Part shown: in pieces, positions 5,516 through 56,373 of the stretch
How the letters are laid out: each line of letters starts with the position of its first letter
How positions within the stretch are numbered: the stretch's first letter is position 1
Source: Affinundibacterium amnicola
GTDB taxonomy: Bacteria; Pseudomonadota; Gammaproteobacteria; Burkholderiales; Burkholderiaceae_D
Reading direction: 5' to 3'
DNA length: 64,000 nucleotides
Assembly: GCF_014284275.1 (NCBI RefSeq)
Contig: NZ_JACOFU010000005.1
Coordinates: 62,001 to 126,000 of the forward strand
Made by a program: the position numbers and the translations under genes
The notes under the pieces: generated by a model
Told to the model about the DNA's origin: nothing
Database searches by the model: none
The model's input: only the letters and a program-made list of their open reading frames with translations

Positions 5516-5910
5516 TTTATTCAGAAATTCGCAAAAGTGATGAATAATTTTTTACACAAAAAAGGTGAAAAAGTAAGCAGATGAAGCACTTAAATTACCC
5601 AAAAGCAATAGTTAATAATCATCATCTAAATACAACAAAAAACAACAGTTTACTGACACTTTTATACATTTTTTTGAAAATGTGTTTGTCTAACTAAGTT
5701 GTTGAATACATACTCCGACTTGGCACTGGTATTGATATAAATCAAATTTCAAGTGCTGAATAAACAATTATGAGGAGACTGTTAGTTTCGATTAATTGAA
5801 TAAAATTAAAAACAGTTGATACATAATTGCAGTAAGAACGCGTCAATTTATCGACAGTTCAGTAATCTTCAACTTACATTTAATGCCAAACCTGGGGAGG
5901 CAAAATTATA
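5516..5910. other. AT-rich divergent intergenic region, no gene seen
   Basis: This 395-bp stretch separates the divergently transcribed blaI-like and subtilase genes. It is strongly AT-rich and contains no credible coding frame. It must hold the subtilase promoter. A ribosome-binding site (GGGGAGG) ends the region, but I cannot fix the -35/-10 boxes with confidence. Confidence 0.5.
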
Positions 5911-43556: not shown

Positions 43557-44315
43557 TCAGAATGCTTTCACTGCAGAGAGGACTAAACCGGTTTTGCCAG
43601 TAAATTTGCCTGCTGGAGTGTAGTAATACTTAACGTCAGTGCTGGTACCAATGACAGCTAAGCTAAAATTAACGCCGACCAATTCTTTGGTGACGCCGAG
43701 TTTCCAATCGTTGTACGAATAGGAGGAATTATTTTTGATCGTTTGACGGCCGTAATGCAGGTTGAAGGTGTAGCCCTCACCCATATCTAAATTGGCACCC
43801 AAATCCAGATAGCCACTATTTTTGCTATCAACAAAGCCGAATAAGTTCGTCACGGAATGCGAGTATTTTGCATACACCGGACCAGTACTAATTTGACCGT
43901 AAATTTCTGTCGTATTGGCATCCGCGAAACCAGCAACATTTTTCAATCCATTACTTGGATAAACATAAGACAGAACACCAACGTCGTAGCTAATATCTGC
44001 GGTGATGGAACCACGCTTGCCAGCATACAAATCCATTTCGATTTCACCGCTACCACCAGCATCCTTAGTCCATTTAATGGTAGACAACCACGTGCCGGCA
44101 TAAAAACCGTGAGTGTTATTGACATAATCTGCACCGCCTTGCAATGCAGGTTTCAAACGTGATTGAGAAATTCCACGATAGCGATAATCGCTCACTGCAC
44201 CTAAGTTGAAACTTACTTCATGCTCTGGTTTTGCTTCTTGAGCCGACACATTGCTAGCGAATAAACCACTAACAAAACAACTACTCATTGCTGCGCAGAA
44301 TAAAATCTTTTTCAT
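43557..44315 (-). CDS. TorF-family putative outer-membrane porin
   Basis: A signal peptide (MKKILFCAAMSSCFVSGLFASNVSAQ) leads into a beta-barrel protein of the Gcw_chp/TorF family: 'SFNLGAVSDYRYRGISQSRLKPALQGGADYV' region, alternating aromatic strands and a C-terminal strand ending in Phe ('GKTGLVLSAVKAF'). It is the first gene of the glnK-amtB operon, so it may let nitrogen compounds across the outer membrane under nitrogen limitation (inference). AAGGA precedes the ATG. Confidence 0.85.
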   Translation of the reverse strand: MKKILFCAAMSSCFVSGLFASNVSAQEAKPEHEVSFNLGAVSDYRYRGISQSRLKPALQGGADYVNNTHGFYAGTWLSTIKWTKDAGGSGEIEMDLYAGKRGSITADISYDVGVLSYVYPSNGLKNVAGFADANTTEIYGQISTGPVYAKYSHSVTNLFGFVDSKNSGYLDLGANLDMGEGYTFNLHYGRQTIKNNSSYSYNDWKLGVTKELVGVNFSLAVIGTSTDVKYYYTPAGKFTGKTGLVLSAVKAF

Positions 44316-44407
44316 GGCATTTCCTTCTTTCGTTAATATGGCGTTTGTTGGCTTTAATTTCAGTTTTAAAAATTAGTGGCGCAAAATCAGTTGCTTTACC
44401 ACCTACT

Positions 44408-44423
44408 AGCAGAACTCGTGCCA
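44408..44423 (-). promoter_or_regulatory. Sigma-54 promoter of the torF-glnK-amtB operon
   Basis: On the minus strand TGGCACGAGTTCTGCT matches the RpoN -24/-12 consensus TGGCACG-N4-TTGCW with one mismatch (C for the first T of TTGC) and exact spacing. It lies 93 bp before the TorF start, as expected for an NtrC/RpoN-controlled nitrogen operon. A dyad just upstream (about 44431-44453, GCGGTGC...GCACGGC) could bind a regulator but is not a classic NtrC site. Confidence 0.7.
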
Positions 44424-44733
44424 GCTTTATTGCGGTGCGCAAAAAGCACGGCAAACCGAGGGAAAGGACGCAATACCACTTTGGGTTTAACTCGGAAACA
44501 GACTAGATAGACGTGTTTTCACTGTGAAAATTGGTTTTTCTGTCGAATTCCAAATTTTCTTCGATGACGTAAATTATTTGCAATTATTTATATTAATTTT
44601 TAATTTCTCGCACTAAAATGACGCAAAATCATTTTGAGAAAAATCTATAATGCACCGGAAAAGCACTTTTCTATTTTTCCATCTACCGTTTGCCGGACAC
44701 ACAGGCTTACCAAATCACATTAGGACATTTCTC

Positions 44734-44976
44734 ATGGAACCGAATCAATTTTTCAACGATATGCAAACCAAGATGCAGCAGGCTTTGGAAAACTCGCCTG
44801 CGAAGGATATTGAAAAGAATCTAAAAGCAATGATGTCACAAGGTTTTGCCAAGCTTGATTTGGTCACCCGTGAAGAATTTGATATCCAAGCTCAGGTTTT
44901 AGCAAAAACACGCAGCAAGCTCGAAGCCCTAGAGTTAAGAATTGCTGAATTAGAGGCGCAGTTACGAGACCAATAG
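44734..44976 (+). CDS. ubiK: Ubiquinone biosynthesis accessory factor UbiK (BMFP family)
   Basis: I take the ATG at 44734 ('MEPNQFFNDMQTKMQQAL'), where the family begins; an upstream frame adds unrelated sequence. The 80-residue protein has 'FAKLDLVTREEFDIQAQVL' and a C-terminal coiled coil ('LEALELRIAELEAQL'), the BMFP signature. UbiK assists the Ubi complex and binds lipids. It is 37 bp upstream of comM. Confidence 0.88.
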   Translation: MEPNQFFNDMQTKMQQALENSPAKDIEKNLKAMMSQGFAKLDLVTREEFDIQAQVLAKTRSKLEALELRIAELEAQLRDQ

Positions 44977-45013
44977 CATCATCAGCGTCTCTATTTTTAG
45001 GTGAATAGACAGG

Positions 45014-45886
45014 ATGGCACTTGCAGTTCTTAAAAGTCGCGCCTTAAATGGCATGGATGCACCAGAAGTTACGGTCGAAGTTCATCTGGCAAATGGACTT
45101 CCTGCTTTTACCATAGTCGGCTTACCTGAAACAGAAGTCAAAGAATCAAAAGACCGAGTGCGAGCAGCCTTACAAAATGCGCGCTTTGATTTTCCTGCCC
45201 AGCGCATTACCGTCAATTTAGCGCCGGCAGATTTACCTAAAGAATCGGGGCGTTTTGATCTGCCAATCGCCTTAGGAATTTTGGCGGCATCTGGCCAAAT
45301 CCCAGCCGACGCTTTAGATCAGTATGAATTCGCCGGAGAGTTATCACTCTCGGGCGAATTAAGACCCATACGTGGCGCACTTGCGATGACATTTGCGATT
45401 TGTCAGAGTGCACAACGCCAACAAACAGATGCCCGCGCTTTTATACTTCCTAAAGAAAATGCAGAAGAAGCGGCATTGGTCAGCGAAGCCCGCATTTTTC
45501 CCGCGGAATCTTTACTTCAAGTTTGCGCGCATTTCGCAGCGATCGATCCAGATTCGAAAATAACTGCGCATCAAAGCCGTCCACACAGCGAGCGCATTAC
45601 TTATCCCGATTTTAGCGACGTCAAAGCACAGACTCAGGCCAAACGCGCGCTTGAGGTTGCTGCCGCTGGACGTCATAGCGTCTTACTGATTGGTCCGCCA
45701 GGTACAGGAAAATCGATGCTGGCAAGTCGCTTTCCTGGAATCCTACCTGGCATGACAGACCAGGAAGCACTGGAATCAGCGGCAGTTCAATCGCTCAGCA
45801 ATGGCTTTCATCTGACAAAATGGAAGCAACGTCCCTATAGAAATCCACACCACACTGCTTCTGCGGTTGCCTTGGTTGGAGGAGGG
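45014..45886 (+). pseudogene. comM: comM (YifB) interrupted by a mobile island; 5' part only
   Basis: The N-terminal 291 codons encode the ComM Lon-like domain ('MALAVLKSRALNGMDAPEV', 'VKESKDRVRAALQNA', 'RFDLPIALGILAASGQI') and the AAA+ Walker A ('LIGPPGTGKSMLASRFPGIL'), then 'RNPHHTASAVALVGGG', after which the family normally continues with Walker B and the rest of ~500 residues. At 45887 the sequence switches to TGTAAAAATTAG, giving an early stop. ComM is a branch-migration helicase for natural transformation, so transformability should be reduced. comM is a known target of AbaR/Tni-type islands in Acinetobacter. Confidence 0.93.
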
Positions 45887-45960
45887 TGTAAAAATTAGAA
45901 TTATTTGAGAATAACAACAATAAATGAGACTAATTAAAAATAAATGAGAATAAGAAAATC
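45887..45960 (+). repeat. Transposon left-end sequence, type 1 (TGTAAAAATT...)
   Basis: The end starts TGTAAAAATT and holds three direct repeats: TTTGAGAATAA (45904), AAATGAGACTAA (45922) and AAATGAGAATAA (45942), 19-20 bp apart, followed by AAGAAAATCTACG. Such spaced repeats are typical of TnsB/TniA transposase binding sites. GAGGG (45882-45886) is the predicted 5-bp target duplication. Confidence 0.7.
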
Positions 45961-46210
45961 TACGATTCTTAAGTTGCAGTTGACCAATTAAGAAACTCAT
46001 TGAAGTAGTTATTTCCTGACCTAAAGATTTGCGTACAAAATTAAGGAATGTTCGCGATTTTTAAGATAGACGATGTCTACGGAATTAGGGGGAAGTCCAT
46101 ATTGCAGGCAATAATTAGGGCGAGAACAATGAGACCGAATGGCAAAATCGAAAAAGACTCTTTGACTTTTTAGCTTGTTGTTAAACATCCTTGCGAAAAC
46201 CTCTTTTATA

Positions 46211-46240
46211 GAATAAACTTCCTATACAGGAAATTTATTC
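46211..46240. promoter_or_regulatory. 30-bp palindromic operator before the XRE gene
   Basis: GAATAAACTTCCTAT and TACAGGAAATTTATTC form a near-perfect dyad (outer GAATAAA/TTTATTC, inner TTCCT/AGGAA) about 17 bp before the XRE start. Its place and symmetry suggest autorepression. Confidence 0.65.
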
Positions 46241-46256
46241 ATATAGGAGAAATAAA

Positions 46257-46907
46257 ATGAGCGAACAACATACACTTGGTAAAATACTACGAAAATTACG
46301 CATCGATCTCGGTTTTTCTGCCGAAGATATTTCAGGCTTGATTGGAGTTACCACTCGTATGATTTCTGCGTGGGAATCCGATGCATACCCGATGCCATAT
46401 GAACGCATGGAACTTCTTTTAATGAAGATTGAGCGTAAAGTACCCGAAGGCGGTTTAGTTATCGTACATGACGTCAACCGACATACAGTCATTGATGTCG
46501 TTACTGAAGGTAATTTTGCTGGCTTTAGTCTGAATCCCGATAATGCGACTATTAAGTCACTGGCCATCGATCGCCGTACAGGTCGCCCTTATATCCATGA
46601 AACAACGTTTAATATTGAAGGAAACGAACATGTAGTGGAAGTTGGGTTCAAATGGAAACGAAATCTATTGCTAAACTTTCAATCTGAGTTCGGTGCAGAA
46701 CTGGATCGGTCAATGATTGCTGTGATTGAATCGATAATAAGACTGGTTAAAGATGCAGAACATTGCAATCCGACATTGCGTCAATTGAAAGATCAAATCG
46801 AGCACGCATCAAACGGTTACTATTCCGCTAAAACGCCAGAAGAACGTAACGCTTATCAACTTGAACAGGACAAAGCAGTTAAGGATTTGCTCAAAATGGT
46901 TAATTAA
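46257..46907 (+). CDS. XRE-family transcriptional regulator, first gene of the island
   Basis: An N-terminal HTH ('LGKILRKLRIDLGFSAEDISGLIG', 'RMISAWESDAYPMPYERMELLL') is followed by ~150 residues without a recognised fold, ending in a charged helix. ATAGGAG lies before the ATG and a 30-bp palindrome just upstream. It is convergent with the CBASS operon and could be either a master regulator of the island or an antitoxin-like protein; neither is proved. Confidence 0.75.
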   Translation: MSEQHTLGKILRKLRIDLGFSAEDISGLIGVTTRMISAWESDAYPMPYERMELLLMKIERKVPEGGLVIVHDVNRHTVIDVVTEGNFAGFSLNPDNATIKSLAIDRRTGRPYIHETTFNIEGNEHVVEVGFKWKRNLLLNFQSEFGAELDRSMIAVIESIIRLVKDAEHCNPTLRQLKDQIEHASNGYYSAKTPEERNAYQLEQDKAVKDLLKMVN

Positions 46908-47196
46908 ACATTACATTACTGCAACTTCTTCATTTTGACAACAACTCCTTTATTTTCTGAAGTAGGGATTTGATACGGATACGCCCACAAGTAAGCTGGC
47001 TGCGAAGATTAAAATAAACGAAAATATTTGTAATTTTCTGCTTTGTCATCAGTTATGCACGATACTCATTTGACGGAATCGAAGCAATTCACAGTGTTAC
47101 CGTCTCTTGTTTCGGTGGGTAAGGAGCTTCCTCAAATTAATCTTTAGATCCACTGTACTGTAATGATGATACCTATATTTTTCGGAGATCGTTAGG

Positions 47197-47976
47197 TCAA
47201 ATACTGGCCAAACTTTTCTTTATTTTTTCCCATTCGAGCGAGAGACACGGATTCATTTTTTCGAACACGCTACCTGACTGCAAGATACCACAAAGCGTCT
47301 TACCAGTTTCATATTCACCAAATAGATCAATTGCATGCACTTGGATAAGTGCATTTTTTGGATGAACAGAAATTAATGAAATCATTTTTTGAAACAACTT
47401 TTCTGCGCGATTTCTCAGCCATTCCATTCTGATCCATTTTGAAATGATAGTTTCGCTAAATAAAAGGTGAACACATATGATTGTCCAATCAAGTGTTCCT
47501 TCCCTATAAAAGACTAGCAATGAAAATACACCGGCGCAGAGGAGGACTTTTGCACGCTCAAGTGCCAACATCTTTAATAGAATTGATTTGCTAAAAAACG
47601 CGTTTTCTAAGACACACAAGATAAGACGTCGATAAGGTTCTTTTTCTTCATTGTTGTAATAGCCGACGGTACGTTCATGGGTAAGTTCAATGTTGAAGAC
47701 ATTAGATAAAAAGTCCTTTCTCCTCGCATCTTCCGCCCTTGGAAAAAAATACAGGCGAATGAATATACCAAGTCCAAAAAACACAATGCCGACGATCTCG
47801 AAAACATGCTGAAAAAACTGCGAAACAGAAGGATGCGCTTTTTTGTCAACAATCAAAACAGCGATCGATAAACAGACACCGACGTAAAATATACCATCTG
47901 AAATTTTCTCGGCCAATTCTAATGGTCGATAGTGGTTTTCCCGAATGGGATCTTCACGTTTAACTGTATTACTCAT
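47197..47976 (-). CDS. CBASS effector with S-4TM membrane domain
   Basis: I start at the ATG at 47974-47976 (AGGTGG 7 nt upstream) rather than 20 codons earlier. The 259-residue protein has four hydrophobic segments (~26-44, ~55-78, ~150-168, ~175-195) and, between the second and third, the S-4TM pattern 'RAEDARRKDFLSNVF', 'HERTVGYYNNEE', 'LENAFFSKSIL'. S-4TM proteins are known CBASS effectors predicted to break the inner membrane once a cyclic nucleotide binds, killing the infected cell. It is the third gene of the operon, 103 bp after the E2 gene. Confidence 0.88.
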   Translation of the reverse strand: MSNTVKREDPIRENHYRPLELAEKISDGIFYVGVCLSIAVLIVDKKAHPSVSQFFQHVFEIVGIVFFGLGIFIRLYFFPRAEDARRKDFLSNVFNIELTHERTVGYYNNEEKEPYRRLILCVLENAFFSKSILLKMLALERAKVLLCAGVFSLLVFYREGTLDWTIICVHLLFSETIISKWIRMEWLRNRAEKLFQKMISLISVHPKNALIQVHAIDLFGEYETGKTLCGILQSGSVFEKMNPCLSLEWEKIKKSLASI

Positions 47977-48078
47977 ATTTGACCACCTATAAATTTGAAA
48001 GTGAAGTTCTCTAATGATTTTGATGCCAGATGGCACTCATATCTAGCTGAATATTAAGACCATATCTTTAGTTAAAGC

Positions 48079-48513
48079 TTAATCGGGATGAACGCCTCCA
48101 CCAGCCCAAACACCTGTATATAGCCAATCTTCGAAGTACCAAAGCCATTCAGTAGTCCAAGGTATGAACGTATCTGTAAATTTCATTTGCGGTAGCCATT
48201 CTCTTTTTCGCGGGTACCATAAACATAACTTGGTACCTTTTCCCTTATGGGTATAGATATGGGGAAGTTTTCTATTCTCAGCAATCAATTCGAGGTCTGG
48301 TGACAAGACTATTAACTCTGGAATTCGAGCGTCCGGTGTTACGCGCAAGAGACATTCATAACTTCTTGAAAAGTGACTTGGTGAGGTTGTGAATTTGTAG
48401 TGTAATTCGCGCCCAGACCAAATTTTGACCTCAGAATTAGGCAGGTCTAATCGTTTCAATTCGATTGCTCGTTGAGCCAATGATAAATTTCTTTGTGCAG
48501 GATGATTCATCAT
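48079..48513 (-). CDS. CBASS stand-alone E2-like conjugating protein (type II-short)
   Basis: The 144-residue protein has the CBASS E2-like pattern: 'LHYKFTTSPSHFSRSYECLLRV', 'PELIVLSPDLEL', the catalytic Cys97 in 'GTKLCLWYPRKREW', and 'IPWTTEWLWYFEDWLYTGVWAGGG'. Its ATG overlaps the CD-NTase stop (ATGATG/TGA), so the two are translationally coupled. In type II-short CBASS, a lone E2 without E1 or JAB acts on the CD-NTase C-terminus to raise its activity. No E1 or JAB gene is nearby. Confidence 0.88.
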   Translation of the reverse strand: MMNHPAQRNLSLAQRAIELKRLDLPNSEVKIWSGRELHYKFTTSPSHFSRSYECLLRVTPDARIPELIVLSPDLELIAENRKLPHIYTHKGKGTKLCLWYPRKREWLPQMKFTDTFIPWTTEWLWYFEDWLYTGVWAGGGVHPD

Positions 48514-49766
48514 TTCGATCCGAAAAATGTATGAGGTCGAGCTTGCACACTGATTGGCGCTGAAGCAGCAGTAATTATGGAAATTTTTCCTACATCTTTT
48601 AGCCCACTAAATTTGTCGGATTCAATTCGTTGAATTGCTGTAACAGCTCGTTCACCAAAGGCATCTCTGATTCGCTCCAATAAAACATTCATTCCATATC
48701 GACCTTCTATCGCTTCGAGCAATCCACGTAAGTCACTAACCAGACGCTCATGCCACCAAATAAATGCAGCTTGTTTCGTTGGTGTGTTCATACCGCTAGC
48801 AAGGTTGTCGTTTGGAGCAGAAGGATTTTCTAACACCCATTCTTCGGTGCCATCTGGGTAGACGTTTCTTTGAAATGCTGTTGGCATGTCTTCCACAATG
48901 TCCAGCATGAGATCAAGCGGGCTAAAGTGTTCATTTATTGCATTTTTGGCGTAACACATCGCCGCCAAAGATGTAATAAAGGTCGAAGACGGTATTAGGT
49001 TTTGATCTATGCCTTCCGAAGAAAACGCCAGATTTCGATGCAATTTCATAATCTGAACCAACCGACTCAGTAGGCGGTTGAAAACTTCCTGTGGTTCGGA
49101 CAAAGGCATAATTTCCGCCCTTACACTGTCAAATGTCTTTGTTAGTGCCTCCATCGCTATATAGCGAGGAGAAATTGCAGCAATTTCGTCAAAAAATTTT
49201 GCGTACCCCCGTGGGTTAGTGGAGTCATACAACTTCAATTTGCGGTCAGGAATTCTTCCATGCGTATCGCCGAAACGTGTCGCCAACATTGGATCGTCAA
49301 TAATTGGTGCAATATCAGCGCACATTCCACCTGCATATTCCAATGTGATACAACGCTCCCAACGTTTGATCCCAAGTTGATGCTTATCTGCATATCGACT
49401 AAGTGCATCGCCAAGATTTTTTAGAAGCAAAGATGGGCCATTTTCACCGCCATATTTCAGCATTGCACGTCGATCCAAGCGCGCAACAAGGTCAATATCA
49501 AAACCGTCTCTCGAATTATTCATTGGCCGAATAATTGTTCCAAGTTGGCGCGATCCTTGAGGGTGAATATGTTGAAGTAAGTCTGAAAATTCGGGGCATT
49601 CGGACAGAAAATCACCTGTACTTCGGTAAGAAGATTCCAAAGAATCCAACTGTGTTGCTGTTGGTTCATTGTTTCGCGCTATTGCATCGATAAGATAAAA
49701 AAACCGCGCGGATGAATTTGTCGAGATGTGAGCCCTATTTGAAAAAATAGAAATGTTCTTGTTCAT
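48510..49766 (-). CDS. CBASS CD-NTase (cGAS/DncV-like nucleotidyltransferase)
   Basis: I start at the ATG at 49764-49766, with AAGGAAAG upstream; a TTG six codons earlier is possible. The ~418-residue protein has the polymerase-beta-like core: Gly71-Ser72 in 'HPQGSRQLGTIIRP', metal Asp90 and Asp92 in 'DGFDIDLV', and the third Asp151 in 'GGMCADIAPIID'. CD-NTases make cyclic di- or trinucleotides on phage infection. The product cannot be predicted here. The C-terminus (RPHTFFGSK) is the presumed conjugation site of the E2 protein next door. First gene of the defence operon. Confidence 0.9.
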   Translation of the reverse strand: MNKNISIFSNRAHISTNSSARFFYLIDAIARNNEPTATQLDSLESSYRSTGDFLSECPEFSDLLQHIHPQGSRQLGTIIRPMNNSRDGFDIDLVARLDRRAMLKYGGENGPSLLLKNLGDALSRYADKHQLGIKRWERCITLEYAGGMCADIAPIIDDPMLATRFGDTHGRIPDRKLKLYDSTNPRGYAKFFDEIAAISPRYIAMEALTKTFDSVRAEIMPLSEPQEVFNRLLSRLVQIMKLHRNLAFSSEGIDQNLIPSSTFITSLAAMCYAKNAINEHFSPLDLMLDIVEDMPTAFQRNVYPDGTEEWVLENPSAPNDNLASGMNTPTKQAAFIWWHERLVSDLRGLLEAIEGRYGMNVLLERIRDAFGERAVTAIQRIESDKFSGLKDVGKISIITAASAPISVQARPHTFFGSK

Positions 49767-50022
49767 TGGAAGCTTTCCTTCCAAATCATCGACAGGCTAT
49801 TTTCTAATTGGCATAAAGATATTTCGGACGAAATATCGAAAGATGAAGAGAAGTATATGCATTTACTCAAATTTTGAGCATTGCACGTAATGACACACTT
49901 TGGCATAGGAGTCTCCTTTTAACGCCAAAGCAAAGGTCATTAAATGATCAAAAAGAGCATCAGAAATCTAAAAAAAAGCGGTTGACAAACAAAAATCTCA
50001 ATCAATAACCGTTAAATTTCTC

Positions 50023-50051
50023 TTTACTGATGTACTTTCACATCATATAAT
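50023..50051 (+). promoter_or_regulatory. Sigma-70-type promoter for the candidate small RNA
   Basis: TTTACT (50023-50028) and a perfect TATAAT (50046-50051) are 17 bp apart. The predicted start is about 50058. No coding frame follows before a terminator, so this looks like an RNA-gene promoter. Confidence 0.6.
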
Positions 50052-50057
50052 TTCCTT

Positions 50058-50170
50058 CGCTGTTAAGAAAAACAAGCGCTCGCATAGGTCCGCCAAGATT
50101 CAATGCTAGCGCTTTGACAATGTTTCGAAAGATAACCGGCATGCCATCGGCATTGCCGGTTTTTCTTTTT
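50058..50170 (+). ncRNA. Candidate structured small RNA upstream of the CBASS operon
   Basis: About 113 nt lie between a good promoter and a strong intrinsic terminator. An internal stem pairs AAGCGCT (50074-50080) with AGCGCTT (50108-50114). The terminator stem pairs ACCGGCA (50135-50141) with TGCCGGT (50154-50160), followed by TTTTCTTTTT. No start codon with a ribosome site occurs. It is divergent from the CD-NTase gene, 290 bp away. No known RNA family is recognised. Confidence 0.5.
50131..50170 (+). terminator. Terminator of the candidate small RNA
   Basis: The hairpin ACCGGCA...TGCCGGT followed by TTTTTCTTTTT at 50160-50170 is a typical intrinsic terminator. Confidence 0.8.
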
Positions 50171-50184
50171 CTAACGCCACAATT

Positions 50185-50211
50185 TTAGCACTCAATAACA
50201 AAGAGTGCTAA
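50185..50211. promoter_or_regulatory. Perfect CIRCE element (HrcA operator)
   Basis: TTAGCACTC (50185-50193), a 9-nt spacer (AATAACAAA) and GAGTGCTAA (50203-50211) match the CIRCE consensus at all 18 defined positions. CIRCE is bound by the heat-shock repressor HrcA, usually before groES, dnaK or related genes. No chaperone gene lies within reach on either strand here; the nearest intact leftward genes are the CBASS operon 420 bp away. Confidence 0.85.
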
Positions 50212-50463
50212 CAAAATTAAAAATATTTCCATTTCCCCTAAATAATATCGATTTAAAAGCCATTTGAGGCCATTTTTAGCCGCTTTTTACCATTTGGTAT
50301 AGTCAGCAATCAATTCAGGCCAGCACCCTAAAAACACCTTTAGATTACTTTAGACGACTTATGTCATAAACCTTATTCTATCTGAAATATTTATGGCATT
50401 ACAGAATATACTGTGTATCCAATCAGGTCAACCAATGGCAATTTATTGCTTTTTGGAATTAAT

Positions 50464-50677
50464 CTATTTGTGAAGCCCTCCTTTGCGAGTTGCTTGCCGC
50501 TTAATTTCTTTTACCTTCTCTAGATCAGGAGCAATCGCTTTCAATCGCTCGACTAACCCTGATAAATCGTATTCATTACTGATTTTCCCTTGATTAGCAG
50601 CGCGTCGTTCGATACGCTTTACCAAACCCGCCTTTTCTAGGTCTGCGATATGACGTTGAATTTGGCGCGTACCTAGT
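50464..50677 (-). pseudogene. 3' fragment of an HTH (replication/plasmid-type) protein, cut by a transposon end
   Basis: The minus frame reads 'LGTRQIQRHIADLEKAGLVK', 'RRAANQGKISNEYDLSGL', 'VKEIKRQATRKGGLHK' and stops at 50464-50466. This is the winged-helix end of a DNA-binding protein type common on plasmids and prophages. The upstream half is absent because the sequence changes at 50678 to the TGTAAAGATT end repeat. It is thus a relic that marks an insertion point. Confidence 0.75.
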
Positions 50678-50767
50678 TGTAAAGATTGGAGTTAAATGAG
50701 AAAGTTGGCACTAAGTGAGAACATTTTTTAGCTAAAAATTTGGAATTTTCTTAGCAAAATAATTCAT
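50678..50767 (+). repeat. Transposon-end-like repeat, type 2, copy A
   Basis: It starts TGTAAAGATTGGAG, carries AAATGAGAAAG (50694) and TAAGTGAGAAC (50712) about 19 bp apart, then an AT-rich tail ending AATTCAT. It shares about 90 bp of layout with copies at 54815 and 57873. It cuts an HTH gene at its first base. Confidence 0.75.
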
Positions 50768-50872
50768 ACCAAAAAATTGAAATTGGAAACGCGGAAATAT
50801 TAGCGTCCGAAGTATTTGAGTTTATTTATAGGTTTCTGCCAAAAAACTAATTGTGGACAAAATCCTCTAAAG

Positions 50873-51169
50873 CTAATTTTTTATTTTTTCGACTTTAAAT
50901 AGCTCACTTATTTGACACTGAAAAATATCTAAGAAAATCTCGATAAATTCCACTTTCCAATGATCGGCACGGTTATCTACAATCCGCGATAGCTGGGAAT
51001 GGGAAACGGCGACCTGCTTGGATATTAATAAGCGATGAAGCGCGGCAACGGATTTGATACCTCGTTCGGCCATTAGCTCGTTGATTCGCAATTTTACTTT
51101 GGGATGTGATGACACTAGGGGGCTTGATGTCCCTGTCTCTACTAGACTGGGTAATGATTTAGATGGCAT
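50873..51169 (-). CDS. XRE/Cro-type HTH regulator
   Basis: I use the ATG at 51167-51169 (GAGG 7 nt upstream) rather than a GTG four codons before. The ~98-residue protein has a Cro-like HTH ('KLRINELMAERGIKSVAALHRLLISKQVAVSHSQLSRIVDN') and ends with 'IFQCQISELFKVE'. It is small enough to be a TA antitoxin or an element control gene, and it faces away from the small gene at 51346 across two palindromes. Confidence 0.75.
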   Translation of the reverse strand: MPSKSLPSLVETGTSSPLVSSHPKVKLRINELMAERGIKSVAALHRLLISKQVAVSHSQLSRIVDNRADHWKVEFIEIFLDIFQCQISELFKVEKIKN

Positions 51170-51207
51170 ATCGAACCTCACTTCGAAGAGGCGAAATTAT
51201 ACATCAA

Positions 51208-51264
51208 ATGACGATTCTTCGCATTTGTTGCAAAAAATCGTCATCCCATGCAAATATTTTGCAT
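51208..51264. promoter_or_regulatory. Two palindromes in the XRE divergent promoter
   Basis: ATGACGATT (51208-51216) is inverted at 51236-51244, and ATGCAAATATTTTGCAT (51248-51264) is a 17-bp palindrome. Both lie between the XRE gene and the divergent small gene, fitting operator sites. Confidence 0.55.
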
Positions 51265-51345
51265 TAAATGCTTGTTTTTATTTTTGTGGCATGGCATAGT
51301 TCAGTCATCGCAACACCGAACACTTTTTTAATTTTAGGATTTATC

Positions 51346-51591
51346 GTGAAAACAGCATTGCTCCCAAAACTGATACAAAAACTGCGCACAACTGCGCTGC
51401 GTTTTGTCGCGGCGAGCAAATCACTCACGACCACGCAGCGCCATACAGCGCATTCCATCAATTCAATTAATTCGCCAGTCGCATTCAATGAGTGTGAGAT
51501 GACCAATGAATTTAGCCCCTTAAGTTATCAAGGGAAGCCGTACCAACAAAGCAGACGAGGGCCTAGCCCTGAAATCGCTGGAGCAACTTAA
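51346..51591 (+). CDS. Small hypothetical protein divergent from XRE regulator
   Basis: A GTG at 51346 with AGGA 7 nt upstream opens an 81-residue frame (MKTALLPKLIQKLRTTALRF...); a longer frame from 51268 lacks a ribosome site. The protein is basic and rich in Ser/Thr/Asn with no known domain. An intrinsic terminator follows 24 bp after the stop, which supports expression. Function unknown. Confidence 0.4.
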   Translation: MKTALLPKLIQKLRTTALRFVAASKSLTTTQRHTAHSINSINSPVAFNECEMTNEFSPLSYQGKPYQQSRRGPSPEIAGAT

Positions 51592-51614
51592 AAGTTGACC
51601 AGAGATAGAAGCTC

Positions 51615-51655
51615 AAAAAGCTCGGATGCCTAAACGCTCCGAGCTTTTTTGTTTT
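51615..51655 (+). terminator. Terminator upstream of the tRNA array
   Basis: AAAAAGCTCGGA (51615-51626) pairs with TCCGAGCTTTTT (51638-51649), followed by more T residues. It isolates the small gene from the tRNA array. Confidence 0.85.
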
Positions 51656-51823
51656 TAACGATCTCATAACGCAGATCGAATTTTTGTAGTGAAACCCGCT
51701 GAAAGGCGGTCGTGCCGTAATCATCGGAACCACACGGGATTTCTTTAACAATCTAGGAAGATCAATATTATTCGCTTTAGTGTCTTGCTCATTATTTGGG
51801 TTCGGCACTTTAGCTAATAATGT

Positions 51824-51897
51824 GCGGGTATAACTCAACGGTAGAGCTGAAGCTTTCCAAGCTTATGACAAGGGTTCGACTCCCTTTACCCGCTCCA
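51824..51897 (+). tRNA. tRNA-Gly (anticodon TCC)
   Basis: Acceptor GCGGGTA pairs with TACCCGC, the anticodon loop is TTTCCAA, the T-arm has GGTTCGACTCC, and CCA is encoded. First member of the island array. Confidence 0.9.
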
Positions 51898-51945
51898 TTC
51901 TAAAAGTCTCTTAGCTTGATTGAGCTAGGGGATTTCTAGAATGAT

Positions 51946-52020
51946 GAACCGTTCGACTTCAGGTGAGGTCAGCGCCCTTTCAAGGCGCATAGATGGGTTC
52001 GATCCCCATACGGTTTACCA
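51946..52020 (+). tRNA. tRNA-Glu (anticodon TTC)
   Basis: Acceptor GAACCGT pairs with ACGGTTT (first pair G-T), anticodon loop CTTTCAA between GCGCC and GGCGC, T-arm GGGTTCGATCCCC and encoded CCA. Confidence 0.88.
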
Positions 52021-52022
52021 CT

Positions 52023-52106
52023 GGGTCAATATGCCGCTAAGGACGCGGGGCAGTCTGTAAAACTGTTGCAATTGCTGGCTAGGATCGTTACCTAGGTGAC
52101 CCACCA
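52023..52106 (+). tRNA. tRNA-Tyr (anticodon GTA), divergent T-loop
   Basis: A long variable arm and the anticodon loop CTGTAAA identify Tyr. Acceptor GGGTCAA pairs with GTGACCC except at the last pair. The T-loop reads ATCGTTA instead of TTCRANY, an unusual feature that could weaken maturation. CCA is encoded. Only 2 nt separate it from tRNA-Glu. Confidence 0.75.
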
Positions 52107-52114
52107 AAAAACAT

Positions 52115-52191
52115 CGGAGTGTAGCGCAGCCTGGTAGCGCATCTGCTTTGGGAGCAGAGGGTCCAAGGTTCAAATCCTTGCACTCCGACCA
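52115..52191 (+). tRNA. tRNA-Pro (anticodon TGG)
   Basis: Acceptor CGGAGTG pairs with CACTCCG; anticodon loop TTTGGGA; T-arm AAGGTTCAAATCCTT; CCA encoded. Confidence 0.92.
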
Positions 52192-52215
52192 CAATTAATA
52201 AGAAGAAAAATAACA

Positions 52216-52449
52216 ATGTTTAAGATTTATTGGACTGAGCTCCAAGAGAACGAGGCAACGGCCTTATTTAAAGACTTTACGGGAGATGGATTGACCGACG
52301 CCTTGCAATTTGCAGAATTATTGAGAAAGCGTCGACGTGAAGGTGAAGACATACGGCACGTTGTACTGTCATCAGAAAACCCCAACTCTGTTGGGGAACC
52401 GGGTGTTGCGGCACCGTCACCATCCTATTCATGGAAGAAACGTCGCTAA
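52216..52449 (+). CDS. Small phage-type hypothetical protein within the tRNA array
   Basis: The 77-residue frame starts 'MFKIYWTELQENEATALFKD' and ends 'SENPNSVGEPGVAAPS...YSWKKRR'. Similar short proteins with a 'SENPN.VGKPGV...YDWKKRR' tail are, as I recall, common in tailed phages and plasmids, but I cannot confirm this here. It lies between tRNA-Pro and tRNA-Phe. The ribosome site is weak. It suggests that the array came from a phage-like source. Confidence 0.6.
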   Translation: MFKIYWTELQENEATALFKDFTGDGLTDALQFAELLRKRRREGEDIRHVVLSSENPNSVGEPGVAAPSPSYSWKKRR

Positions 52450-52456
52450 AGTACAT

Positions 52457-52532
52457 GCAGAAATAGCTCAGACGGTAGAGCGCAGGTTTGAAGAACCTGG
52501 CGTCGAAGGTTCAAATCCTTCTTTCTGCACCA
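52457..52532 (+). tRNA. tRNA-Phe (anticodon GAA)
   Basis: Acceptor GCAGAAA pairs with TTTCTGC; anticodon loop TTGAAGA between CAGGT and ACCTG; CCA encoded. Confidence 0.92.
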
Positions 52533-52539
52533 AAACCAT

Positions 52540-52615
52540 GGGGATATAGCTCAGATGGTAGAGCACCTGCTTTGCAAGCAGACCGTCGTCGGTTCGAATC
52601 CGACTTTCTCCACCA
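52540..52615 (+). tRNA. tRNA-Ala (anticodon TGC)
   Basis: Acceptor GGGGATA/TTTCTCC retains the G3-T70 wobble that marks tRNA-Ala but has a T-T mismatch at pair 6. Anticodon loop TTTGCAA; CCA encoded. Confidence 0.88.
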
Positions 52616-52639
52616 TTTTCATTATCAAGGGAGTAAAAC

Positions 52640-52843
52640 ATGAAGCAAAAGAGCATGGTGCCTCGCAATCCTTATGCGATGGTCGCCAAAACAAAAAAAG
52701 CGGGCGCACATCGAAAACCATTTAAATCGTTGCGTCGTCAAGAAAAAATCCAACTACGGATGTGTAGCTCAACTGGCCAGAGCACTCGACTTTTAATCGA
52801 TAGGTTGCGGATTCGAGTTCCGCCACATCCACCAAAAATTTAA
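52640..52843 (+). CDS. Small basic protein running through tRNA-Lys
   Basis: GGGAG lies 7 nt before the ATG. The first ~40 residues (MKQKSMVPRNPYAMVAKTKK AGAHRKPFKSLRRQEKIQLR) look like a small basic phage protein; the frame then continues in full through tRNA-Lys (52758-52834) and stops at 52841. The real protein probably once ended before the tRNA, and the tRNA gene was joined to it. Whether it is translated is unknown. Confidence 0.5.
   Translation: MKQKSMVPRNPYAMVAKTKKAGAHRKPFKSLRRQEKIQLRMCSSTGQSTRLLIDRLRIRVPPHPPKI
52758..52834 (+). tRNA. tRNA-Lys (anticodon TTT)
   Basis: Acceptor GGATGTG pairs with CACATCC; anticodon loop CTTTTAA; T-arm GCGGATTCGAGTTCCGC; CCA encoded. Confidence 0.92.
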
Positions 52844-52890
52844 TCAAAGCCTCATTACTAATGCGTAGGCGGTTTTAATTAATTTTTTGA

Positions 52891-52966
52891 TTCTCGATAG
52901 CTCAGCCGGCAGAGCGACGCACTGTTAATGCGTATGTCCGTGGTTCGATCCCACGTCGAGGAGCCA
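52891..52966 (+). tRNA. tRNA-Asn (anticodon GTT)
   Basis: Acceptor TTCTCGA pairs with TCGAGGA (one T-G); anticodon loop CTGTTAA between ACGCA and TGCGT; CCA encoded. Confidence 0.92.
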
Positions 52967-52970
52967 GTTT

Positions 52971-53048
52971 AGGGGGTTAGCCAAGTGGTCTAAGGCATCT
53001 GGTTTTGAACCAGACATTTCGAAGGTTCGAATCCTTCATCCCCTGCCA
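52971..53048 (+). tRNA. tRNA-Gln (anticodon TTG)
   Basis: Acceptor AGGGGGT pairs with ATCCCCT; anticodon loop TTTTGAA between CTGG and CCAG; discriminator G and encoded CCA. Confidence 0.92.
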
Positions 53049-53055
53049 AATATTC

Positions 53056-53122
53056 GTTCCTTTAGCTTAGACGGGTAGAGAGCGTAGCGGGGTCGTCGGT
53101 TCGATTCCGGCAAGGAACACCA
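53056..53122 (+). tRNA. Aberrant tRNA lacking the anticodon arm
   Basis: The acceptor (GTTCCTT/AAGGAAC), a D-arm and a canonical T-arm (GTCGG TTCGATT CCGGC) with encoded CCA are intact, but only about six nucleotides lie where the 17-nt anticodon arm should be; total length is 67 nt. It cannot decode. It is either a deletion pseudogene or a tRNA-shaped decoy. Discriminator A and the variable region recall tRNA-Val, but isotype cannot be fixed. Confidence 0.7.
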
Positions 53123-53140
53123 ATTTTAAGCGTATTTTGG

Positions 53141-53217
53141 GGTGGCTATAGCTCAGTTGGCAGAGCTCTAGATTGTGATTCTGGTGGTCATCGGTTCGAT
53201 TCCGATTAGTCACCCCA
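53141..53217 (+). tRNA. tRNA-His (anticodon GTG)
   Basis: It has the extra 5' G (G-1) facing C73, the His identity mark; acceptor GTGGCTA pairs with TAGTCAC; anticodon loop TTGTGAT; CCA encoded. Confidence 0.92.
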
Positions 53218-53241
53218 AAGTACGTTTCTTCTACAAACAGC

Positions 53242-53318
53242 AGATGTGTAGCTCAGTTGGTAAGAGCGCCGTGTTGATAACGCGGAGGTCCTTGATTCGA
53301 GTTCAAGTACATCTACCA
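53242..53318 (+). tRNA. tRNA-Ile (anticodon GAT)
   Basis: Acceptor AGATGTG pairs with TACATCT; anticodon loop TTGATAA between CCGTG and CGCGG; CCA encoded. Confidence 0.92.
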
Positions 53319-53327
53319 AGAATTAAT

Positions 53328-53401
53328 GCGTGGTTGCGAGAGAGGTCTAATCGCGCGGATTGCAAATCCGTTGTTCGTCAGTTCGAATCTGACATCACGC
53401 T
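53328..53401 (+). tRNA. tRNA-Cys (anticodon GCA), CCA not encoded
   Basis: Acceptor GCGTGGT pairs with ATCACGC; anticodon loop TTGCAAA; discriminator T as in Cys tRNAs. The genome reads TCA after it, so CCA must be added. Confidence 0.88.
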
Positions 53402-53410
53402 TCAATTTAT

Positions 53411-53486
53411 CTCGCCTTAGCTCAGTTGGAGGAGCGCGACGCTACGAACGTCGAGGACGCAAGTTCGAATCTTGCAGGCGGGTCCA
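53411..53486 (+). tRNA. tRNA-Arg (anticodon ACG)
   Basis: Acceptor CTCGCCT pairs with AGGCGGG (one T-G); anticodon loop CTACGAA between CGACG and CGTCG; CCA encoded. A34 would be read as inosine after TadA editing. Confidence 0.92.
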
Positions 53487-53491
53487 ATTAT

Positions 53492-53557
53492 GCCGCGCAG
53501 ACGAAAGTCGGTGATCCCTCACGATTGCTTTGTCCATGTTGGACAAGCGCGGCACCA
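53492..53557 (+). ncRNA. Non-canonical cloverleaf-like RNA with 7-bp acceptor and CCA
   Basis: GCCGCGC (53492-53498) pairs perfectly with GCGCGGC (53547-53553), followed by A and CCA as in a tRNA. Inside are three hairpins in the order of a cloverleaf: GAC-GAAA-GTC (500-509, GNRA loop), GTGA-TCCC-TCAC (511-522) and TTGTCC-ATGTT-GGACAA (530-546). No TTCRANY T-loop and no 7-nt anticodon loop exist. It sits between tRNA-Arg and tRNA-Ser at normal spacing. Function unknown. Confidence 0.55.
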
Positions 53558-53571
53558 GATCTATGTTTTTC

Positions 53572-53660
53572 GGAAGGTTCGCATAATGGTAGTGCACCGG
53601 ATTGCTAATCCGGCGATCTCGAAAGAGGTTATGTGAGTTCGATCCTCGCACCTTCCGCCA
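53572..53660 (+). tRNA. tRNA-Ser (anticodon GCT)
   Basis: Acceptor GGAAGGT pairs with ACCTTCC; anticodon loop TTGCTAA; long variable arm (CTCGAAAGAG); discriminator G; CCA encoded. Confidence 0.9.
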
Positions 53661-53675
53661 GTCATTTTATTTTAA

Positions 53676-53751
53676 GCCGGTTTAGCTCAGATGGTAGAGC
53701 GCCTGATTTGTAATCAGGATGTCGCGAGTTCGAATCTTGCAACCGGCACCA
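53676..53751 (+). tRNA. tRNA-Thr (anticodon TGT)
   Basis: Acceptor GCCGGTT pairs with AACCGGC; anticodon loop TTTGTAA; CCA encoded. Confidence 0.92.
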
Positions 53752-53758
53752 GGTTTAT

Positions 53759-53846
53759 GGAAGTGTGGCAGAGTGGTCTATTGCATCGGTCTTGAAAACC
53801 GAAGGGTCGAAAGGCTCCGTGAGTTCGAATCTCACCACTTCCTCCA
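53759..53846 (+). tRNA. tRNA-Ser (anticodon TGA)
   Basis: Acceptor GGAAGTG pairs with CACTTCC; anticodon loop CTTGAAA; long variable arm; CCA encoded. Confidence 0.9.
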
Positions 53847-53855
53847 ACATTAAGT

Positions 53856-53915
53856 CGTCATCGCATCGGTGTCGGCGCTGGCAGTTAGCAGATAGCTTTC
53901 GCTGGTGACGTACCA
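53856..53915 (+). ncRNA. Possible second tRNA-like structure
   Basis: CGTCATC (53856-53862) can pair with GGTGACG (53904-53910) with one wobble, followed by TACCA. Internal hairpins are weak (AGC-TTTC-GCT at 53894-53903 and a 4-bp stem before it). It fills a wide gap between tRNA-Ser and tRNA-Leu. It may be chance. Confidence 0.25.
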
Positions 53916-53946
53916 ATGCCCTTGGGATTTTTCTGATGATCTTATG

Positions 53947-53982
53947 GCTGCCGAACATTTCGAAAGTTTATTTGTTCGGTAG
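53947..53982. other. Ten-bp-stem hairpin between tRNA-Ser and tRNA-Leu
   Basis: CTGCCGAACA pairs with TGTTCGGTAG (one wobble) around a 13-nt loop. No T-tract follows, so it is not a clear terminator. It may be a processing signal in the polycistronic tRNA transcript. Confidence 0.4.
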
Positions 53983-53992
53983 CAAACTCTAC

Positions 53993-54074
53993 GCGCAAAT
54001 GGTGGAACGGTAGACACGCTAGTCTTAGGAACTAGTACTTCGGTGTGAGAGTTCGAATCTCTCTTTGCGCACCA
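53993..54074 (+). tRNA. tRNA-Leu (anticodon TAG)
   Basis: Acceptor GCGCAAA pairs with TTTGCGC; anticodon loop CTTAGGA between CTAGT and ACTAG; long variable arm; CCA encoded. Confidence 0.92.
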
Positions 54075-54079
54075 AATAT

Positions 54080-54166
54080 CGGCATGTGGTGAAACTTTGG
54101 TAAACACAACGGACTTAAAATCCGTCGCTTCATTGCTTGCCGGTTCGATTCCGGCCATGCCGACCA
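54080..54166 (+). tRNA. tRNA-Leu (anticodon TAA)
   Basis: Acceptor CGGCATG pairs with CATGCCG; anticodon loop CTTAAAA between ACGGA and TCCGT; long variable arm; CCA encoded. Last member of the array. Confidence 0.9.
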
Positions 54167-54209
54167 TTTCAGATTTGATCTTCCTAGATTTTCTATCTCT
54201 AGGCAAACT

Positions 54210-54767
54210 ATGCAAGTCTTAGCATGTGACATCAGCGGAACACCATTCGATTGGATTTCATCCAATGATGCCGCCACCTATTACGCTTCACAAAAAGTGG
54301 CGTGGGACGTTGGCGACATTGCTCGGGTGTACCGTGGAGGAACTAATCTTGATGGTGATACCTCACTCATTGCGATTCGGCCTGTCATTGCGATTGCAAG
54401 TAATGCGCGTAAAACGAAAGTTTTGCGACACGTAATTCCTTTAGGTGATGGCAATCGTTTGTTATTTGCTCGCGATCGCAATACTTGCGCCTATTGCGGT
54501 GACATTTTTCCGCACAGTGAACTGTCGCGTGACCACATTCTTCCGAAGTCCAAAAATGGCCAAGATACCTGGACGAATTGTGTGACCGCGTGTCGCCGAT
54601 GCAATCAGGCCAAGGCAGACAAATTTGTGTATGATTTTAAGCCGCTTTTGTATGTGCCCTATGAGCCGTGTCGTTATGAACATTACCTACTTTCTGGTCG
54701 AAATGTGATCGCTGATCAGCACGATTACTTAGCGGCTAAATTGCCAAAGCACAGCCGAATTTTCTGA
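54210..54767 (+). CDS. HNH endonuclease at the end of the tRNA array
   Basis: The 185-residue protein has a Cys-type HNH domain (~90-140): 'CAYCGDIF', catalytic His in 'SRDHILPKSKNGQDTW', 'NCVTACRRCNQAKAD'. The N-terminal ~80 residues ('LACDISGTPFDWISSNDAATYYASQKVAW') recur in small bacterial and phage HNH proteins. It follows tRNA-Leu by 43 bp and may be co-transcribed with the array. HNH enzymes of this type nick or cut DNA and often ride beside phage tRNA clusters, where they can promote spread of the cluster. Confidence 0.85.
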   Translation: MQVLACDISGTPFDWISSNDAATYYASQKVAWDVGDIARVYRGGTNLDGDTSLIAIRPVIAIASNARKTKVLRHVIPLGDGNRLLFARDRNTCAYCGDIFPHSELSRDHILPKSKNGQDTWTNCVTACRRCNQAKADKFVYDFKPLLYVPYEPCRYEHYLLSGRNVIADQHDYLAAKLPKHSRIF

Positions 54768-54814
54768 AAGAAGTTTTTCAGGGTTCACTCGTCAAAATTT
54801 ATCTTCCGTCTGGA

Positions 54815-54906
54815 TGTAAAGATTTGAGCGAAATGAGAAAGTTGGCGATAGGTGACAACATTTTTTAACTAAAAAATTTGCTTCTTTTCTTGATGGAACA
54901 ATTCAT
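54815..54906 (+). repeat. Transposon-end-like repeat, type 2, copy B
   Basis: TGTAAAGATTTGAG start, AAATGAG (54831) and AGGTGAC (54850) 19 bp apart, AT tail ending AATTCAT. It closes the tRNA-array module. Confidence 0.72.
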
Positions 54907-55094
54907 TTCTTTAAGAATTTATCAATCGCCTGTATACCTGCTTCCATCTTTTGCCTAGCAGAAGAATTTGCTGAATGAACACTCGTCCTCGGTGGAATAA
55001 ATCCGTGGAGTACAACCGATTCATCTGGCCAATACACACGTACCCACCCTTCTGGCGTGGTGCGCTCATCATCTAAGAAAACACGAAGCGCCAG
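54903..55094 (-). pseudogene. Internally deleted cREC-REC (cyclic-phosphate processing receiver) gene
   Basis: The minus frame reads 'VFLDDERTTPEGWVRVYW' followed at once by 'VVLHGFIPPRTSVHSANSSA' and 'RQKMEAGIQAIDKFLKK'. From memory of the family, about 36 residues including the DHDLG motif should lie between these blocks, so an in-frame deletion is inferred. The stop overlaps the end repeat B. Confidence 0.6.
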
Positions 55095-55192
55095 CGAAGC
55101 CGGATCGGATTGGTCTCTTAGCTGCTTTTTCGTTGAGTTCCTTTTTGAAAATAGTATTGGAAGTCACAGTAATGAGAAACCTAGGATCTTGA

Positions 55193-55474
55193 TTAAATTA
55201 GATCATGTATCCTAAATTTCTCGCGGTTGTCTCCCATTTTCGACCGAATCTCTTTAATCGTCCAACCAGTTTCTTCATGAATGCGAATTAATAGAGTAGC
55301 CCCAATGGGTAATATTCGATGACGAATTTTGCTCACTACTGGTGGAGCTACTTCGAGACGGCGTGACAAAGCGGCATCGTTGCGAATGCCTAAATGTTTG
55401 ATGATTGCATCGAGTAAATTCTCCGGATCGTAGTTAAATTCAGATGTTTCCGGGATATCTAGAATATTTGGCAT
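55193..55474 (-). CDS. Small XRE-like DNA-binding protein
   Basis: The 93-residue protein has a compact HTH ('DAIIKHLGIRNDAALSRRLEVAPPVVSKIRHRILPIGATLLIRIHEETG') and a charged tail (SKMGDNREKFRI). Close relatives are frequent in betaproteobacteria. It is monocistronic and divergent from the secreted protein gene at 55681. Target unknown. Confidence 0.7.
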   Translation of the reverse strand: MPNILDIPETSEFNYDPENLLDAIIKHLGIRNDAALSRRLEVAPPVVSKIRHRILPIGATLLIRIHEETGWTIKEIRSKMGDNREKFRIHDLI

Positions 55475-55680
55475 AGATGCGATTCCAAAGTGATTTTTTC
55501 AGTTCTCTACTGTAGTGGATGTCTATAAATTGTTAGTTATAAGTTGTCTTGCTTTTAAATATATATTATATTAATTCTGCAAATACAAATAGGCAAAGTG
55601 ATTTTTATTTGTGTCGTTATGCCAACTTAACGACAATTAAAGTAATGATTTGTCATTATGATATTTTATAGAAAGAAAGT

Positions 55681-56373
55681 ATGAAGAACATTCTTTTTTG
55701 TACGGGTATCGCTATTTGTGCGTTAACCTCTTCGGCCGCATATGCACAGACTGTTTCTGCGAACAAGGCATCAACAGTTTCATACGCTAGGGATCTTCGC
55801 GGTAACACGCAAGTGAAATTAGAAAATCAGGGTGGGAAAACAAAAGTTACGAATACGGCGACTGGTGAATTTATCATTGCAGATGGTGAATTGGCTGGGA
55901 AATTGACTGACCATCAATATACGCACATGATGCTAATAAAAAATGAACAAAAGATCAAAATGCTTAAAGGCGAGTCCGATGCTGCAATTCTTGGGCTGGA
56001 CCGCGTAAACTCAACCTCATTACCATCACGAGCACTGATCGCTGCGACAAATTGCACATTTAGCTATAGTATTACAGGCGGTGGCGGTGGATGGAGTTCT
56101 CCATTGTGTTATCTGCCATCTACATCAAACGCTTCAATTTCAATTTCTGCGACATCTAGCTCATCAAAAACCTATACAGCAACTCTGTATCGGGATATTT
56201 CATTTTGGCCCGACAAATCTTACGGCACGAAAAATTTTTCTACCAGTGGAAGCAGTACTACCAACTCATCTGCGAGCTGGACCAATATCGATGCGGGTAG
56301 TTATTATTACGTAACTTTGTCAACGACTTATGATGGTCGTTCTGTTTGGGGGCAATTCACATTAAGCCAATAA
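55681..56373 (+). CDS. Secreted hypothetical protein
   Basis: A signal peptide (FCTGIAICALTSSAAYAQT) is followed by ~200 residues rich in Ser, Thr, Gly and Tyr with beta character in the C-terminal half (repeated 'ISATSSSSKTYTATLYRD', 'DAGSYYYVTLSTTYDGRS'). AGAAAG is the ribosome site. No domain is recognised. A long perfect hairpin follows its stop codon. Confidence 0.65.
   Translation: MKNILFCTGIAICALTSSAAYAQTVSANKASTVSYARDLRGNTQVKLENQGGKTKVTNTATGEFIIADGELAGKLTDHQYTHMMLIKNEQKIKMLKGESDAAILGLDRVNSTSLPSRALIAATNCTFSYSITGGGGGWSSPLCYLPSTSNASISISATSSSSKTYTATLYRDISFWPDKSYGTKNFSTSGSSTTNSSASWTNIDAGSYYYVTLSTTYDGRSVWGQFTLSQ

Follow-up and report, generated by a model that had tools for sequence, protein, structure and literature searches.

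A perfect CIRCE element upstream of a type II CBASS operon in Affinundibacterium amnicola and its recurrence before related cyclase genes

The stretch of DNA analysed here, called the window, covers 64,000 nucleotides of the Affinundibacterium amnicola genome. To the left of a CIRCE inverted repeat it holds a full type II CBASS operon, in which cyclase, E2 and 4TM effector were all recognised by profile matches (Table 1). The active-site motif of CD-NTases is GS...DxD...D; residues G72 S73, D91, D93 and D152 of this cyclase are invariant across the nine rows of our alignment A2. The cyclase start was set at the ATG which overlaps the stop codon of a short putative leader ORF. The coordinates of the effector use the listed GTG start, and the true start may be internal.

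Table 1. Features of the CBASS locus and its upstream region (window positions)
Feature	Coordinates	Strand	Basis or remark
CBASS 4TM effector	47197..48036	-	PDLC00719 E=2.9e-85
CBASS E2-like protein	48079..48513	-	PDLC00863 E=1.6e-49
CBASS CD-NTase (oligonucleotide cyclase), 418 aa	48510..49766	-	PDLC00817 E=4.1e-188, SMODS E=2.2e-12
Putative 47-aa leader ORF, AAGGAG-like ribosome site	49763..49906	-	stop overlaps cyclase start (ATGA)
Sigma-70-like promoter TTTACT-17-TATAAT, 10 of 12, pointing away from CBASS	50023..50051	+	G139 (L255) counterpart TTTACG-18-TATAAT
Candidate small RNA, ~110 nt, ending in an intrinsic terminator before CIRCE	50055..50170	+	G139 counterpart L255 2947-3060
CBASS-directed promoter-like site embedded in CIRCE, TTAGCA-18-TAAAAT, TG before -10, 9 of 12	50182..50211	-	sequence pattern
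Perfect CIRCE inverted repeat (putative HrcA operator)	50185..50211	.	consensus match
Winged-HTH-like gene, C-terminal fragment truncated at an IS-like end	50466..50680	-	by eye; no Pfam match

The CIRCE element reads TTAGCACTC-AATAACAAA-GAGTGCTAA, with 0 mismatches to the consensus TTAGCACTC-N9-GAGTGCTAA, and is the sole match at ≤3 mismatches within the 64-kb window. The whole genome (4.58 Mb, 99.8% complete, 32 contigs) holds three matches at this threshold, every one perfect, and a reversed control pattern matched one place in it. As located by tblastn, these elements lie 199 bp before groES, where a TATAAT abuts the operator, 76 bp before the rpoH match, and at 50185. The hrcA gene of the same genome is intact (PF01628, E=1.3e-63; a 346-aa open frame with 0 stops), which disposes of the absence of HrcA from the host, named in the initial annotation as grounds for rejecting its proposal. 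That annotation was also right about the perfect element and its exact position, about the lack of a chaperone gene nearby (by eye, none among the ORFs listed for 44000-56000), and about CBASS beginning 420 bp to the left; by measurement the cyclase ATG (49766) is 418 bp away and the 47-aa leader ORF 278 bp.

The island around the operon has been rearranged on its right side. There, a 69-nt direct repeat, 84% identical between its copies at 50673-50741 and 54810-54878, resembles an insertion-sequence end and cuts off the winged-HTH fragment; between the two copies we noticed no transposase gene. They enclose an array of 18 tRNA genes on the plus strand (51824-54166), followed by an HNH endonuclease gene (54210-54767). 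At the left edge of the island a comM/YifB-like Mg-chelatase gene (45014-45898) is cut short at 294 aa, and it was the sole match in the genome when its N-terminal part was used for the search. Phage and plasmid collections gave no match to 49800-51820. A phage origin of the CBASS was rejected after two scans of viral contigs with the cyclase as query found no relative.

It is instructive to ask how unusual a third CIRCE is. Among 43 genomes of the genus, some of them incomplete, two elements at ≤1 mismatch were counted in 38, one in four, and three in the genome of the window only. One locus per genome was fetched for 29 of the 42 other genus genomes, and every one stood at groES or rpoH. The same holds for all 58 loci (55 distinct places) fetched outside CBASS, a set that lacks, for most genus genomes, their second CIRCE and, for a Massilia strain described below, one of its three.

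Relatives of the cyclase were collected by scanning 84,980 species with the cyclase alignment and keeping the best 80 of 204. Eight are close, with 44-53% identity: two Paraburkholderia, Variovorax, Herbaspirillum, Polaromonas, Massilia, Pseudoduganella and B. cenocepacia. A CIRCE at ≤4 mismatches was present in one of these best 80 loci, that of Massilia sp. YIM B02443, where it is perfect and lies directly before the cyclase; the 72 remoter relatives among the best 80 had none at this threshold. A search of 392 family genomes returned five cyclases, namely those of the window, Herbaspirillum and Massilia and two new close members, G215 and G139. Both new members have a CIRCE-like site upstream of the cyclase, with one mismatch in G139 and two in G215, where the inverted repeat is nevertheless perfect. 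CIRCE-like sites thus occur in 4 of 11 clade members. All members except the window were retrieved by protein alone; since the window was picked for its CIRCE, the fair count is 3 of 10, with the operator 39-335 bp upstream. The search for CIRCE beside CBASS in related islands, which the initial annotation had proposed, is therefore positive, and the 7 of 11 members lacking the element were counted against recruitment, as were the 72 remoter relatives. Among 62 genomes of the genus Massilia only the known clade member was found. Wider sampling, with 399 genomes of the order and 369 of the class, added to the window no more than 4 and 1 remote cyclases, respectively, at 27-34% identity.

The separation between members with and without the operator is sharp. 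When the 460 bp upstream of each cyclase gene are searched for the best site, four members score 0, 0, 1 and 2 mismatches and the other seven score 7-9, a bimodal distribution in which the second group is background. Markov nulls (2000 per region) gave a mean best of 7.5-7.8 mismatches and a minimum of 4-5, and in the four members none of them reached the observed value. In 100 dinucleotide shuffles of the window the mean number of matches at ≤3 mismatches was 0.01, a single shuffle having one. Both this figure and the recurrence at CBASS in independently retrieved loci speak against a chance inverted repeat, an explanation which we regard as scarcely credible.

The genomes of these members also help to place the third element. 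At ≤2 mismatches, Massilia has three CIRCEs and the genomes of the other seven close relatives have two each; at ≤3 mismatches, G215 and G139 have three each, at groES, rpoH and CBASS. The groES gene carries a CIRCE in Massilia, G139 and G215, and rpoH carries one in G139 and G215. Third CIRCEs are exceptional, and in all four genomes which have three such sites one of them is located at CBASS. The label "orphan", given to the element in the initial annotation, is consequently too strong, as the third site stands upstream of CBASS in 4 of 4 genomes having one. The control pattern, reversed, hits four places of the G215 genome at ≤3 mismatches, so that the case for the G215 site leans on its position.

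The three other loci differ in arrangement. Massilia has the most compact one, in the order TATAAT, perfect CIRCE, 39 bp, start codon and cyclase, then E2 and 4TM. The operator touches the TATAAT; a promoter-like site with a -35 was looked for and was not found. On the other side of the operator, 12 bp away, starts a probably spurious ORF of 127 aa (TTG start, no Pfam match), and the cyclase is the sole recognisable gene adjoining CIRCE in either direction. In G139 the operator lies 335 bp upstream of CBASS, behind a phage-type integrase which stands on its far side and points toward CBASS; this CBASS (L255 / L262) has two different cyclases (PDLC00817 and PDLC00802) with one E2 between them, and a 4TM effector. 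In G215 the distances are 204 bp to the cyclase and 169 bp to a leader ORF, and on the opposite side a divergent AbiEi gene, with AbiEii behind it, starts 121 bp from the operator, so that AbiE is nearer than CBASS. Leader ORFs overlapping the cyclase start (ATGA) were seen in three of the four members with CIRCE, at 49763-49906 of the window, at 2748-2786 of the G215 locus (L254) and at 2739-2816 of the G139 locus (L255). Their peptides, of 47, 12 and 25 aa, respectively, are mutually unrelated in sequence.

Could the element be a functionless piece of a groES or rpoH promoter that the island has captured? The initial annotation had offered a groES promoter fragment as an alternative, and to the right of the window's CIRCE there is indeed a CTAACAA, as at several groES promoters. 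However, among the 392 family genomes the six others with a match have it over the operator and up to ~12 bases beside it only, no groES coding remnant was noticed by eye, and the operator recurs at CBASS in three other genera with unrelated flanks. Comparison of the four sites gave a flank identity of 16-37% and spacers agreeing in 1-3 of 9 positions, which means that the operator alone is kept. As almost nothing matches beyond the operator, we consider the captured fragment very improbable. The operator requires three changes on the cyclase tree, at least two of them forced, and its distribution is unclustered (133 of 500 label shuffles scored as low); a single origin of the operator was sought in this tree and is not shown by it. 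Judged from these comparisons, the operator may either have been gained more than once or alone have been retained over a long time.

Between CIRCE and the cyclase, the window and G139 share a layout on the strand opposite to the operon: a 10-of-12 sigma-70 promoter, ~110 nt of candidate RNA, a strong terminator and then CIRCE. The -10 ends 133 nt before CIRCE in the window and 136 nt in G139, and the terminator stem ends 24 and 19 nt before it, respectively. We found no similarity between the two RNAs beyond promoter and operator. Fold z-scores with the terminator are -3.1 for the window and -5.95 for G139; without it they are -1.2 and -3.0, so that most of the signal in the window RNA is the terminator. 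No Rfam family reaches its gathering score for either RNA (the window gave two matches below that score, L255 none at E up to 1), and a known RNA family was on this ground rejected. Promoter-like sites on the opposing strand are present in 3 of 4 members with CIRCE versus 0 of 7 others, a difference favoured by composition, since the G+C content is 36-46% in the three and 40-61% in the seven. The opposing RNA candidate and its terminator, lying between the window's CIRCE and the cyclase, were counted against recruitment of the operator by CBASS.

In which direction, then, does the regulated promoter point? A profile built from the sequences around CIRCE in 49 of the 58 groES and rpoH loci oriented 48 of 49 left-out known sites correctly, an accuracy which is optimistic because many of the sites are related. 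Its log-odds toward CBASS are +10.4 in Massilia, +9.9 in G215, +5.7 in G139 and +0.94, near zero, in the window. Single -10-like hexamers tell otherwise: of those next to CIRCE, the better one faces away from CBASS in the window, G139 and G215. This test is weak; it was right in 28 of the 49 known sites, with two ties. In the window the comparison is between an away-pointing CACAAT with 4 of 6 positions and a CBASS-directed hexamer with 3 of 6. CBASS-directed promoter-like sites, such as the one embedded in CIRCE, are no commoner than chance in this region (5 versus 5.4 in shuffles).

These data leave room for a real operator that serves another transcript: in the window either the RNA next to it or a transcript on the away side, whose gene the IS-like end has since cut away, and in G215 the AbiE genes. 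The near-zero orientation score and the away-pointing CACAAT of the window fit such an assignment, as do the TAAAAT which points toward AbiEi and abuts the operator in G215, the greater proximity of AbiEi there, and the rearranged right side of the window, to which the winged-HTH fragment and the IS-like repeat testify. Against it, the first listed plus-strand ORF to the right of the window's CIRCE starts ~0.8-1 kb away and the ORF at 51268 has no Pfam match; the G139 integrase on the away side is directed toward CBASS; in Massilia no other recognisable gene than the cyclase adjoins the site; and CBASS is the neighbour common to all four sites. We therefore hold service to another transcript to be unlikely. 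Preference goes to the reading in which the element at 50185 is a functional HrcA operator recruited to the type II CBASS operon of cyclase, E2 and 4TM effector, which on sequence grounds we think probable. The initial annotation had suggested that CIRCE places CBASS under HrcA control, and this part of its proposal gains support from the 3 of 10 recurrence and from the Massilia operator, which abuts TATAAT 39 bp before the cyclase. Support for recruitment is strong in Massilia and moderate in the window, because there the cyclase is 418 bp away and the orientation score is near zero.

The clade contains another kind of upstream gene as well. A Peptidase_M78 gene precedes CBASS in 5 of 7 members without CIRCE (L154, L155, L156, L157 and L161), its HTH partner being confirmed by Pfam in L154 only. 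The two remaining members, L158 and L160, had no M78 among the four and five upstream proteins scanned, and L158 has an HTH gene. For the four members with CIRCE, the neighbour proteins scanned include neither M78 nor WYL, the chance of zero M78 in these four being p=0.045. Given this value, and since the five M78 loci include three near copies, the contrast between CIRCE and M78 across the clade is a hint only.

It is useful to compare the window with known systems. CBASS regulators CapW, CapH+CapP and CapK+CapS are encoded beside the operon and have DNA damage as signal, according to the accessible text of PMC13373217 and, for CapW, also of PMC9122588. The HTH repressor and Peptidase_M78 of CapH+CapP form a transcriptional repressor module upstream of CBASS which releases under stress, and M78 genes stand in this position in the same cyclase clade, as described above. 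The window has HTH genes at 46257 and 50873, and the nine proteins scanned there gave no M78 match; HrcA, a housekeeping repressor, would take the place of a dedicated one, and the expected signal would be GroE load, in contrast to the single-stranded DNA described in the accessible part of PMC13373217. CapW, a WYL protein, also acts through a palindromic operator in the CBASS promoter region and represses before infection (PMC9122588, as far as its accessible text goes). Repressor, operator and signal are others here, and the same nine proteins gave no WYL match. The defence-island repressor RptR likewise has a conserved operator before defence genes and is, unlike HrcA, encoded within the island it controls, as stated in the accessible part of PMC12255303, a part which holds nothing on heat-shock control. 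With the CIRCE/HrcA regulon, the class I heat-shock control, the window shares operator sequence and spacing, both identical to the consensus, and the genome has an intact hrcA with other CIRCE copies at groES and rpoH. The difference is that the neighbouring operon is antiviral and not a chaperone or sigma-32 gene. Among the full-text literature matches listed, a scope in which subscription journals mostly do not fall, there was no report of HrcA or CIRCE control of CBASS, and no paper naming CIRCE, HrcA and CBASS jointly.

CIRCE elements were also traced in viral contigs, where 104 stretches carried one. By tblastn, 11 of them lie by GroES/GroEL, and the other 93 had no match to GroES, GroEL, RpoH, HrcA or the three CBASS proteins within 1.8 kb, with queries that missed some hsp20-like or GroES-like ORFs visible by eye near CIRCE. 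No CBASS match was found near CIRCE in any of the 104. By eye, a perfect CIRCE lies 28-29 bp before Hsp20-like small ORFs in ten contigs (L050, L059, L071, L077, L081, L092, L104, L124, L126 and L142), so that in some viral contigs a small heat-shock gene seems to have an HrcA-type operator before it. One contig, L074, has three perfect CIRCEs in tandem at 5424-5548 with 49-bp spacing, and no GroES, GroEL, RpoH or HrcA match within 1.8 kb.

If the operator has been recruited to CBASS, how would it act? In other bacteria HrcA binds CIRCE better with the help of GroE; unfolded protein draws GroE off by titration, and the genes are thereby released, as described in the accessible text of PMC6032397. 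By analogy, under normal conditions GroE-assisted HrcA would bind CIRCE and CBASS transcription would be kept low. When GroE is occupied, by heat, misfolded protein or possibly the folding of phage capsids, HrcA would lose DNA binding and CBASS would be made, its derepression running parallel to that of groESL and rpoH. Such a switch would set the amount of CBASS, and activation of the cyclase would still need its own trigger. HrcA occupancy, repression and induction are inferred, as is the direction in which the regulated promoter of the window points. The position of the operator beside CBASS in four bacteria suggests that an overloaded folding machinery could raise production of an antiviral system.

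Phages may supply the folding stress by occupying GroEL. A more specific version of the recruitment reading would make HrcA a chaperonin-load sensor for infection: viral proteins occupying GroE would inactivate HrcA, and CIRCE-bearing CBASS, groESL and rpoH would be derepressed together, with basal expression held down by the small RNA of the opposite strand and by the leader ORF that overlaps the cyclase start. We put this forward tentatively, as a possibility that is more doubtful than recruitment itself. If it is true, immunity would be wired to a host machine which many phages need, with no dedicated regulator gene.

Operator and operon are each known, and their combination appears to be new. 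A borrowed heat-shock repressor would represent a different logic of CBASS control, in which folding stress serves as the danger signal and the same switch would raise chaperonin and sigma-32.
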